From: Bacteroidota bacterium
Lineage (GTDB): Bacteria; Bacteroidota; Ignavibacteria; Ignavibacteriales; Melioribacteraceae
NCBI GenBank assembly: GCA_018818165.1
Contig: JAHISP010000047.1
Span: 1 to 37,963, forward strand
Length of the DNA stretch: 37,963 nt
Direction of reading: 5' to 3'
Every line of letters starts with the position of its first letter. The stretch's first letter is position 1. A model generated the notes under the pieces. The model had not been told where the DNA came from. It saw only the letters and a list, made by a program, of their open reading frames with translations, and did not search any database. Positions 1 to 2,076 of this stretch are shown piece after piece. Both the position numbers and the translations under genes were made by a program.

Positions 1-681
1 GATGATTATGTTTTTGCTCTTTCCCAAGCAGTTGAGGCTTATGAGTTTTATTTGCAAAAATCTGTTGATTGCGATAAAAAAATTGAACAACTATTAAAAG
101 TAGTAACAAAGGATAAAGAAGAACCACTTAAAATTATAAAACCAAAAACTATAAGACATAATGCACCGCAAATAGATAATCTTCATCTGCTTCTTATGAA
201 ATTAACCAATGGCAAAGATCCTTCTCAAGTAACTGGATTAACCGATAAAACACTCTTGGAGCTTATTGCAGAAACTGGAACTGATTTATCTCGCTGGCCA
301 ACAGAAAAACATTTTACTTCTTGGCTTTGTCTTGCTCCAGGTAAACATCAATCCGGCAAGAAAAACAAGAGCAGAAACAAAAAGGGACATACTAAAGCGG
401 GACAAATATTTAGAAATGCTGCGTTCTCTTTGGCAAAAAGTAAATATACTTCTATTGGGGCTTTCTACCACAGACTCAAAGCTAAAAAGGGGCCGTTAAT
501 TGCAATTAAAGCTACAGCAAGAAAAATTGCAGTACTTTATTATAATGTTTTTACTAAAGGTATAGCTTTTGTGGAAAAAGGCATTAATGATTATCAACAA
601 AAAGTCAAAGAACAAAGATTAAAGTACTTAACTAAACAAGCTAAACAACTAGGCTTCAATTTAGAGCCAATGATTATTTAA
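1..681 (+). CDS. IS110-family transposase, C-terminal part (5' end outside window)
   Basis: The frame is open from base 1, so the start lies upstream; a TTG at 52 is not a real start. The visible 226 codons correspond to the C-terminal Transposase_20 domain of IS110-family recombinases. The stretch TSWLCLAPG-HQSG followed by a basic segment, then GHTKAGQIFRNAA, matches the family pattern in which a serine in the QSG region (codon 352-354 here) joins the N-terminal DEDD site in catalysis. The DEDD domain is outside the window. The stop at 679-681 is followed almost at once by another gene fragment on the opposite strand. The right end of the element is therefore very short, as in the IS110 group proper, whose guide (bridge) RNA is encoded upstream of the transposase. 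Family assignment is confident; intactness cannot be judged. Confidence 0.88.
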   Translation, partial: DDYVFALSQAVEAYEFYLQKSVDCDKKIEQLLKVVTKDKEEPLKIIKPKTIRHNAPQIDNLHLLLMKLTNGKDPSQVTGLTDKTLLELIAETGTDLSRWPTEKHFTSWLCLAPGKHQSGKKNKSRNKKGHTKAGQIFRNAAFSLAKSKYTSIGAFYHRLKAKKGPLIAIKATARKIAVLYYNVFTKGIAFVEKGINDYQQKVKEQRLKYLTKQAKQLGFNLEPMII

Positions 682-975: not shown

Positions 976-2076
976 TTACTCAACTCCAACCTCATCAATC
1001 TCTTTCATCAATCTATCTGTTTCAAACAACGAAACTATAATTTTCTGGTAGTGTAAAATGTCTTCAAAATTTAGTTCTCTACCTCTGCGGTCTTTTAACC
1101 ATTTTTGAGCTGGTTGGTATCCACCGATATAAAACTCCCAAGCTATTAGAGGAATTTTATCAAAGTATTGCTCATCATTTATCCAGATTCTTCCTAGTTG
1201 GTTTTCAATATCGGTTATTTCCCAATCATTTTTATCGAGTTTACGAGTTATTTTGTTGTCTCCACCAATTGGATAACTTGTAATCGGTTCATTCACTTTT
1301 GGGGATTCCAGCAAATGCAATTCTCTAATTTCTCCACCTAATTTAACAAGCTTCCAGAATGTTTCTTTATCCTTTGGATATGGCACTCGAGGAAAATCGA
1401 TTTTTAGAAATTCTTTATACTTTTCTCTATACGTTGGTGAATGCAGAACTGCGTATATGTAATCCAAAATATCAATTGGAGCAAAAACCTCAAAAGGCTC
1501 CCCTCCTTGAAAGGAGGGGTTAGGGGTGGTTTTACTCCACCCAAAAGCACTCCTAATTTCAGATAAAACAAAATCAGTTTCATCAAAAACTAATTTGTTC
1601 TCAAATCTTAAAACCTTTATGCCATAATTGTTAAGAAACAAATCCCTTTTTTTGTCATATTCTTGGGCTTCTTCTGTGTTGTGAACCGCTCCGTCTAGTT
1701 CAATTGCTAACTTTTCGCTTGGTGAGTAAAAATCCAGAATATAGTTGTTAAAGCTGTGCTGTCTTCTAAATTTTATACCACCTAATTGTGAGTTTTTTAA
1801 CAACGTCCACAGTTTGGCTTCTGCTGGCGTGAGATTGTTCCTAAGGTTTTTTCTAAATGTTTTTAGGTGCGGTAGGTTGTTTAGTGAGCTATCTGCAACT
1901 TTTACCACCACCTCCCCCTTCGGGTACTCCTCCTCTAAAGGAGGAGAGCTTTTATTAATGAGTTCACGTATTAAACGCTCTGAATCACCACGATATGAGT
2001 GTTCTCCCGACATACCAGATTTGTATCTGGTGTTTACTGTTTCAATGTATTGTTGTGTTGTCATGTTGTGATTCAA
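976..2076 (-). CDS. Chimera: type ISP/IIG restriction-modification ends flanking a DUF559 endonuclease domain
   Basis: Residues 1-42 (YIETVNTRYKSG..GEHSYRGD) resemble the extreme N-terminus of type ISP/IIG single-chain restriction-modification enzymes. Residues about 197-360 (IDILDYIYAVLHSPTYREKYKEFLKIDFPR, then GGYQPAQKWLKDRRGR) resemble their C-terminal target-recognition/specificity region. The nuclease, helicase and methyltransferase core normally lying between is absent; those enzymes are about 900-1600 residues, this one 366. In its place residues about 74-178 form a DUF559 (Vsr/MTES-type, PD-(D/E)xK-like) domain with putative catalytic residues D115, E126, D128 and H132 (DFY...AIELDG..H). 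Low-complexity linkers, residues 43-58 and 183-193, are encoded by GC-rich palindromic ends. The frame is open throughout. It may be a decayed remnant or a functional nuclease with a recognition domain. No host methyltransferase is visible. Confidence 0.75.
   Translation of the reverse strand: MNHNMTTQQYIETVNTRYKSGMSGEHSYRGDSERLIRELINKSSPPLEEEYPKGEVVVKVADSSLNNLPHLKTFRKNLRNNLTPAEAKLWTLLKNSQLGGIKFRRQHSFNNYILDFYSPSEKLAIELDGAVHNTEEAQEYDKKRDLFLNNYGIKVLRFENKLVFDETDFVLSEIRSAFGWSKTTPNPSFQGGEPFEVFAPIDILDYIYAVLHSPTYREKYKEFLKIDFPRVPYPKDKETFWKLVKLGGEIRELHLLESPKVNEPITSYPIGGDNKITRKLDKNDWEITDIENQLGRIWINDEQYFDKIPLIAWEFYIGGYQPAQKWLKDRRGRELNFEDILHYQKIIVSLFETDRLMKEIDEVGVE
1500..1519. repeat. 20-bp palindrome, downstream border of DUF559 cassette
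   Basis: Nine-base arms CCCCTCCTT and AAGGAGGGG surround a 2-base centre. It encodes part of the PNPSFQGG linker on the minus strand. Confidence 0.9.
1927..1946. repeat. 20-bp palindrome, upstream border of DUF559 cassette
   Basis: Eight-base arms CTCCTCCT and AGGAGGAG surround a 4-base centre. It encodes the PPLEEE linker on the minus strand. Its sequence class and GC content match the other cassette border. Confidence 0.9.

Follow-up and report, generated by a model that had tools for sequence, protein, structure and literature searches.

A DUF559 nuclease cassette with palindromic ends lies in frame in a type ISP restriction gene and in other Bacteroidota genes

The cassette in the window and its nuclease domain

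The DNA analyzed here, called the window throughout, is a stretch of 37,963 nucleotides (nt) from a Bacteroidota bacterium of the Melioribacteraceae (GenBank contig JAHISP010000047.1). Its minus strand carries a 366-residue open reading frame (ORF) in which a DUF559 nuclease domain with palindromic ends, referred to below as the cassette, lies between two parts of a type ISP restriction-modification enzyme. The frame, its parts, and the neighboring gene are as follows.

976 to 2076, minus strand: ORF of 366 residues, made up of an ISP N-terminal remnant, the DUF559 cassette, and the ISP specificity domain (ORF list, Pfam).
1951 to 2076, minus strand: N-terminal ISP remnant of about 42 residues; the methyltransferase core, which comes next in the intact enzyme, is gone here (comparison with the L022 protein).
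1905 to 1950, minus strand: left cassette end, a hairpin at 1927 to 1946 and then, inward, a G-rich motif, with the coding frame kept (palindrome search, folding; end of the same lineage in locus L194).
1549 to 1863, minus strand: DUF559 nuclease domain (PF04480), with putative catalytic residues D115, E126, D128, H132, and D141 (Pfam, alignment, model).
1496 to 1529, minus strand: right cassette end, the motif CCACCCCTAA and then a hairpin at 1500 to 1519, inverted relative to the left end (palindrome search, folding).
976 to 1485, minus strand: type ISP C-terminal specificity domain, from FAPID on, 92.4% identical to that of the intact G002 enzyme (Pfam, comparison).
1 to 681, plus strand: 3' portion of an IS110-type transposase, lying at the edge of the contig; context only, outside the cassette (ORF list, Pfam).

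An earlier note, made from the sequence alone, had described the frame as the two ends of an ISP-type protein joined to a complete DUF559 domain, and the domain searches bore this out. DUF559 (PF04480) matched residues 72 to 176 (E = 1.2e-31; 109.3 bits against a curated cutoff of 20.6), Type_ISP_C (PF18135) matched residues 196 to 358 (E = 1.4e-49), and the N terminus aligned to that of an intact 1,230-residue ISP enzyme from a genome of the same genus, G002 (79.8% DNA identity over 114 nt). PADLOC called the window protein a type IIG restriction-methylase, via its C-terminal part. The frame starts at a TTG at 2076 and runs for 366 codons without a stop; an ATG at 2064 is the more likely start, as it agrees better with where the intact relative begins.

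Two hairpins flank the nuclease domain, CTCCTCCTTTAGAGGAGGAG at 1927 to 1946 on one side and CCCCTCCTTTCAAGGAGGGG at 1500 to 1519 on the other, and both fold better than shuffled sequences (z = -3.2 and -2.7). The whole window contains 11 perfect palindromes with arms of at least 8, among which the GC-rich ones, a label judged by eye, are the two cassette hairpins. The junctions are GC-rich palindromes, as had been claimed. Their relation in inverted orientation was also found; it is imperfect in the window and near perfect in the cassettes of G002 and L194. Between 1490 and 1960 the coding frame is the only open frame of the minus strand, with 19 and 12 stops in the other two, so that the reported lack of stops even through the palindromes holds. 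A pattern for one hairpin family matched 20 sites in the window's own genome, and a reversed control pattern matched none. On contig C59 of this genome (L002), units of about 40 nt carrying CCCCTCTTGAGAGGAATTGTGAATGCCGAAC are repeated in tandem at about 1165 to 1400, directly before a stand-alone DUF559 gene.

The residues named as catalytic in the earlier note (D115, E126, D128, and H132) fall in invariant columns across 29 aligned DUF559 domains, where the complete D, E, D, H, D set is invariant. All five were kept in 58 of 59 in-frame domains, 75 of 77 stand-alone domains, and 9 of 9 other long-frame domains. A structural model of the window domain (pLDDT 89.5, pTM 0.81) was compared with solved folds by Foldseek. 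The best match was 3hrl (E = 8e-8), which is also the best solved sequence relative (E = 1.6e-19), followed by the homing endonuclease I-Bth0305I (3r3p; TM 0.67/0.76), to which a sequence profile match was also found (E = 1.3e-6). PvuRts1I, AbaSI, and chains from mitochondrial ribosomes all came before Vsr, which took ranks 10 and 11 (E = 0.04 to 0.05). Among mitochondrial ribosome proteins of Toxoplasma and Tetrahymena, several chains gave weak matches to the DUF559 fold (E = 0.002 to 0.4).

The loss of the methyltransferase core, also part of the earlier description, was evident from comparison with relatives. The window protein keeps the first ~42 residues and the specificity domain of an ISP-type enzyme and is without everything from about residue 42 to the left edge of the cassette, whereas G002 and L194 retain the core. 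The full-length G002 enzyme has methyltransferase and specificity domains, with a DUF559 domain in frame at the window's site, directly before FAPID(I/L)LDYIYAVLH; its cassette ends are near-perfect inverted copies with two hairpins per end. L194, from another family of the same class, also has near-perfect inverted hairpin ends.

The missing core raises an explanation that concerns the window copy only and is compatible with any account of the cassette in general, namely, that a pseudogene in decay, or a join made during assembly, gives no meaningful protein here and has stayed in frame across the deletion by chance. Besides the absence of a core that G002 and L194 possess, the assembly is divided into 105 contigs, and the gene lies no more than 2.1 kb from a contig end, next to the transposase piece at 1 to 681, for which no link to the cassette was found. 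Against it stand the 366 open codons, the intact catalytic set, the specificity domain that is still 92.4% identical to its intact relative, and a second in-frame core-deleted case. In the latter, a type III Mod-like gene (L085, 1824 to 2951, minus strand), comparison by eye with L048 showed that the methyltransferase core is gone in frame and the DUF559 cassette is kept. We regard a pseudogene or join at the window as possible, with the balance somewhat against it. In the Mod-like gene of L048, several in-frame tandem repeats coding for TPSPFQ or SPSPFQ precede the right palindrome of the cassette.

Palindromic ends and in-frame hosts across the phylum

The palindromes accompany other DUF559 copies as well, contrary to one of the two outcomes named in the earlier note as refuting its interpretation. 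A GC-rich hairpin was scored when it lay within 150 nt of the domain. Of the order's 92 DUF559 domains, counting that of the window, 74 had one upstream, 78 had one downstream, and 64 had both; under the same criterion, 80 of 1,374 control pieces of the same loci had one. Rows were dropped from the DUF559 sets if they covered fewer than about 95 profile positions, had less than 250 nt of flank, or were duplicates. A larger set of 151 domains had hairpins on both sides of 108. Among these, the 82 stand-alone domains had a hairpin upstream in 61, downstream in 70, and on both sides in 54 cases, and the 69 long-frame domains did so in 58, 63, and 54. The control for these sets, 43 other genes in the stand-alone loci, gave 7 upstream, 13 downstream, and 4 on both sides, and on these counts (7/43, 13/43, and 4/43) ordinary terminator hairpins around DUF559 were rejected as a candidate. 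For relatives from named organisms (77 testable domains), the counts were 41, 46, and 31; these named loci partly duplicate unnamed ones (for example, L240 = L060, L297 = L149, and L250 = L036). When the two ends of one copy were compared in inverted orientation, their median similarity was 14, versus 9.5 between ends of different copies, and the value exceeded the cross-locus 99th percentile in 22 of 92 copies. The palindromes are the ends of a widespread DUF559 cassette and are not private to the window. One locus (L087, genome G069) has a pair of DUF559 genes, separated by 936 bases, whose domains are identical; this looks like a recent tandem duplication. For the stand-alone copy in L024, no empty site was found in genomes of the same genus, where the neighboring DNA is too diverged.

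DUF559 matches were found in 98 of 146 genomes of the order and in 222 of 395 genomes of the phylum, and many of the matches listed sit within open frames of at least 800 codons. The idea that such a cassette can enter coding sequence without breaking the frame was borne out in unrelated genes, of which some are essential. Host Pfam domains flank DUF559 on both sides in MetH, LeuRS (two sites), RecG, an IcmF-type methylmalonyl-CoA mutase, UvrD-like helicases, HsdR (two sites), ISP, a type IIG enzyme, adenine deaminase, CinA, MiaB, and urocanase; some of these short gene names are ones that we take to correspond to the Pfam names. A CoA-transferase protein has two matched stretches around DUF559. 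The host hit is one sided in HsdM and type III Mod-like genes, DUF559 is also present in a GH2 protein, and terminal fusions in HemF, HisF, RNase HI, PurL-type, HutG, and HemD frames are weaker evidence. A scan of genome contigs confirmed 573 stretches, and its best 80 loci contained 81 domains: 52 in MetH and 13 in LeuRS, by similarity to the host set, with the other 16 divided among seven run through Pfam, seven assigned by junction peptides, and two in short frames.

Carriers include cultured strains, among them Flavobacterium hercynium DSM 18292 and Salegentibacter holothuriorum DSM 23405 (MetH loci L304 and L268). Among the matches listed, the named relatives of the cassette are Bacteroidota, except for one record labeled Candidatus Saccharibacteria (L247), which has the cassette in urocanase and whose label may reflect a binning error. 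DUF559 relatives occurred in 39 plasmid records, every one below 60% identity, and ISP relatives occurred in 194; a phage search gave four weak matches, two of them annotated as homing endonucleases. In a Flavobacterium sp. metagenome-assembled genome, a single MetH frame (L306, 1277 to 4792) holds two DUF559 domains, one in the usual linker and the other inside the activation domain. Short palindromic sequence is present at the flanks of both, though only one of the four flanks scored as a hairpin. A different nuclease domain, GIY-YIG, replaces a short loop in frame in the HsdR protein of L052 (residues 251 to 317), with DUF559 further on in the same protein; there are no obvious hairpins around it, and no further GIY-YIG insert was seen in the fetched loci.

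An AlphaFold2 (AF2) model of a MetH fragment (pLDDT 83.5) placed a confident DUF559 domain between confident host domains, joined by palindrome-coded residues with pLDDT below 50. Conserved genes that carry a nuclease insert in frame and have clean empty alleles would also be expected of an intein-like element, in which case the insert would be removed from the protein after translation. However, a Pfam scan of 38 proteins (hits with E up to 1e-5) showed no intein or Hint domain. The inserts scanned gave DUF559-type hits only (PF04480 and PF18741), the remainder being short palindrome-coded linker, disordered in the MetH model, and MetH inserts have linkers of 155 to 210 residues in all. A splicing domain of the known kinds would need more than the palindrome-coded stretches left beside DUF559. 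The junction residues also vary, and we consider removal of the insert from the protein very improbable. No HUH Y1 transposase hit was found by Pfam in the cassettes scanned. A group I or group II intron was rejected on the open frame through the insert alone, no RNA-family search having been made.

Empty, inserted, and scarred alleles

The MetH, ISP, and DUF559 loci compared are top-scoring matches, so that their proportions of inserted and empty alleles are not prevalences; a survey of LeuRS in 120 genomes comes closer to one. At the MetH, ISP, and LeuRS sites, the majority of the alleles compared have no interruption.

The ISP site was compared in 30 loci, the best matches from 296 genomes. 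In 26, the gene runs straight through; two are inserted (the window and the gene of L194), one has a palindrome alone at exactly the window's site (L348), and one (L328) was unmatched by the pattern. The search for the intact host gene thus returned both uninterrupted alleles and, in G002, a full-length enzyme with DUF559, and the possibility that the window's ends belong to a distinct 366-residue family was rejected, since intact ISP enzymes cross the site in these 26 of 30 loci. The cassettes at this site are of two kinds. Between the window and G002, the specificity domains are 92.4% identical and the DUF559 domains only 30.3%, whereas the gene of L194 carries the window's own DUF559 lineage (cassette 74.8% and host 75.5% identical). 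Four states are therefore represented at the ISP site: no insert, a palindrome by itself, a cassette of type 1, and a cassette of type 2.

In MetH, the linker between the cap and B12 domains was measured in 54 distinct sequences. It is 24 to 26 residues long in 33 and 155 to 210 residues long, with DUF559, in 19. The remaining 2 of 54 have linkers of 30 or 38 residues; the 38-residue linker (L221) encodes peptides like those of cassette ends and is read as the scar of a lost cassette, and the 30-residue linker (L226) is less clear as a scar. A further 16 MetH loci outside the anchor pattern were all empty (linkers of 21 to 25 residues). The locus L036, at a contig edge, is unplaced. On a tree of the MetH host proteins, which omits those 16 loci, the inserted state changes at least 11 times, or 13 times if inserted or scarred genes are set against empty ones. 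A single genus holds inserted, empty, and scarred MetH genes. Two closely related MetH genes share 82% identity over the 60 nt to the left of the site, compared with 92 to 95% in four intervals further left.

In the LeuRS survey, which covered site A in 120 genomes of one family, 118 genomes gave matches, and in 102 of these the match extends unbroken over the site (G558, among them, has a frame break elsewhere). The 16 others have gaps at the site, nine of 384 to 615 nt and seven of 42 to 126 nt. Fifteen of the gapped genes were fetched, the sixteenth (G172) being L198, and three empty ones were added for comparison. All eight of the long inserts fetched hold DUF559, and five are intact. Of the others, L359 has a broken frame, and L357 and L358 (family f30) have an in-frame DUF559-like domain without the ExDGxxH motif, which suggests a dead or domesticated remnant inside LeuRS. 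In seven of seven genomes compared that carry an interrupted LeuRS, it is in each case the sole full match to the LeuRS editing domain; each of these genomes has one more, partial match in a frame of 878 to 910 codons, presumably ValRS.

The short LeuRS inserts differ. By eye, those in L365, L367, and L368 are other in-frame palindromic repeat families without a nuclease (GTCATTCC...GGAATC and GATGCTGAA...TTCAGCATGAC), the peptide encoded by L369 resembles that of L367, L371 has the look of a tandem repeat, and L366 and L370 show no clear palindrome. Such inserts bear on the proposal that it is the palindromes themselves that move, as do Rickettsia palindromic elements or REPs, through some host or replication process; they would enter linkers in frame, with DUF559 as a passenger or later occupant between two copies. 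Consistent with it are the palindrome-only inserts at cassette sites (L348 in ISP and L221 in MetH), the other palindromic families in LeuRS, and the one hairpin family that is scattered over 20 places in the window's own genome. A passenger, however, would not need the strong conservation seen in the nuclease of in-frame copies, and some solo copies, such as L221, resemble scars of a lost cassette. We judge it quite unlikely that the palindromes alone are the mobile unit.

Proposed homing and mobility, and known systems

In a tree of 145 DUF559 domains, copies group by host gene and site, with 29 label changes versus 66 after shuffling. The 19 MetH copies, which come from four families, require two changes on the tree, and MetH, LeuRS, RecG, mutase, and UvrD copies fall in one 35-row group (support 94). 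This grouping by site would fit site-bound homing lineages with rare jumps, and old vertical insertion followed by many losses would give it too. In the vertical alternative, DUF559 was recruited about once per host gene, has been inherited mainly vertically and often lost, and now serves the host (for example, in repair or defense coupled to the host enzyme), with the palindromes as passive repeats. Grouping by host site across families and classes, the correlation of cassette and host identities in MetH and their equality between the window and L194, and the kept catalytic residues all agree with such an origin. Other observations do not: insert, empty, and scar states alternate inside one genus, unrelated cassettes occupy one ISP site in enzymes whose specificity domains are 92% identical, stand-alone copies are flanked by hairpin ends too, the hosts have no function in common, and one MetH holds two DUF559 domains (L306). 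Mobility is favored because of the unrelated cassettes at the ISP site, the alternation within a genus, and the double insertion, and single vertical recruitment appears unlikely.

We think it rather likely that the cassette is a selfish, non-splicing, palindrome-ended element of the homing type, with an EDxHD/Vsr-like fold, that is kept as a translated loop domain. Chances seem evenly balanced on a broader proposal, in which such cassettes form a separate class of selfish DNA that homes into linkers of housekeeping genes, persists as a translated part of proteins such as LeuRS and MetH, and goes through a complete cycle in which cassettes invade, are displaced by unrelated ones, decay, and leave scars; the dispersed palindromes of the same genomes would then be scars and landing pads of that class.

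Several results weigh against a homing element. Only 31 of the 77 named relatives have hairpins on both sides, with a hairpin in 254 of 2,846 control pieces, and flavobacterial cassette ends have shorter arms. The similarity between the two ends of a copy is raised in direct orientation as well (median 11.5), as palindromes would give, and it is for this reason only partly a sign of terminal inverted repeats. Palindromes also occur alone, as at the 20 sites of one family in the window's genome. A partly vertical pattern is seen in the correlation of cassette and host identity in MetH (Spearman 0.58) and in their equality between the window and L194. The DUF559 tree has few columns (111) and many weak forks, the AF2 model of the MetH fragment has a low pTM (0.46), and many of the genomes are metagenome assembled. 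The dip in identity beside the insert of the close MetH pair is on the left side only, with none on the right. The cassette replaces a few linker residues in MetH and ISP and so is not a pure addition, and a target-site duplication was not identified, no systematic search for one having been made. Finally, phage EDxHD enzymes are described as having an extended DNA-binding region, which DUF559 lacks.

What we infer from the sequences about cleavage, homing, the role of the palindromes, expression, and the order of events at the window is the following. The element would be a DUF559 nuclease of about 110 residues between inverted, hairpin-forming ends, open in one frame. On landing in a tolerant linker of a host gene, it would neither stop translation nor be spliced, and it would be translated together with a functional host protein, as a loop domain, and hence be expressed without a promoter of its own. 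That the host protein keeps working with the loop can be concluded for LeuRS from the interrupted gene being the only full match and is presumed elsewhere. When an empty allele of the same linker arrives, the nuclease would probably cut it, or else cut at the palindromes, and repair would copy the cassette across into the cut allele, so that each lineage would stay at one gene and site; occasional off-target events would found new sites. Loss of the cassette would leave in-frame palindrome scars or catalytically dead domains. The palindromes may be recognized ends or landing pads, and solo copies would fit either. At the window, the cassette would have entered a type ISP gene, and a later in-frame deletion would have taken the methyltransferase core up to about the left end of the cassette; the product, a nuclease joined to a recognition domain, probably no longer restricts.

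The familiar ways for a nuclease gene to sit harmlessly inside an important gene are self-splicing introns and inteins. If the homing interpretation is right, a third solution exists in a common phylum, in which the nuclease lies in frame, in a linker, and stays in the protein. The purpose of palindromic repeats in these genomes, the gain of new protein domains, and the reason for the unexplained nuclease domain in some of these bacteria's LeuRS, MetH, RecG, and restriction enzymes would become testable, and phylogenies and domain annotation of host genes can be distorted by cassettes. No description of palindrome-ended DUF559 cassettes in frame inside host genes was found in the open-license papers searched, a sample in which absence counts for little.

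Known systems share some of these features. The Vsr-like DUF559 proteins, Caulobacter VsrA and 3hrl of N. gonorrhoeae, have the same domain as the cassette. In the parts of the VsrA report consulted, the gene is studied for SOS induction on loss of a cytosine methylase, and no palindrome-ended cassette within a gene is described (PMC12907096). Rickettsia palindromic elements are described as in-frame palindromic inserts in unrelated genes, about 150 bp long with a conserved peptide (PMC10969869). The DUF559 cassette is likewise a palindromic insert in frame in unrelated genes; it differs in holding a conserved nuclease between two inverted palindromic ends, giving inserted MetH linkers of 155 to 210 residues. 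REP/RAYT systems combine dispersed palindromes with a DNA-cutting protein, the RAYTs being HUH Y1 enzymes. The cassette system may be analogous in pairing dispersed palindromes with a DNA-cutting protein, but the DUF559 fold is PD-(D/E)xK/Vsr-like and not that of an HUH Y1 transposase. Inteins with a homing endonuclease resemble the cassette in lying in frame in conserved genes and in having a nuclease domain, empty alleles, and decayed copies; unlike them, the cassette has no detected splicing domain and, as far as can be judged at the sequence level, stays in the protein.

The closest parallel in fold is with the EDxHD homing endonucleases. A DUF559 gene has been assigned to this family in one paper (PMC9403480), and I-Bth0305I is described as a multidomain enzyme with a target of nearly 60 bp (PMC3943268). 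The window domain matches I-Bth0305I (PDB 3r3p) in fold and has the E-D-x-H-D residues, and the cassette has the patchy, site-bound distribution of homing elements. It differs from these enzymes in being a bare domain of about 110 residues with palindromic ends, carried in frame inside a host gene.

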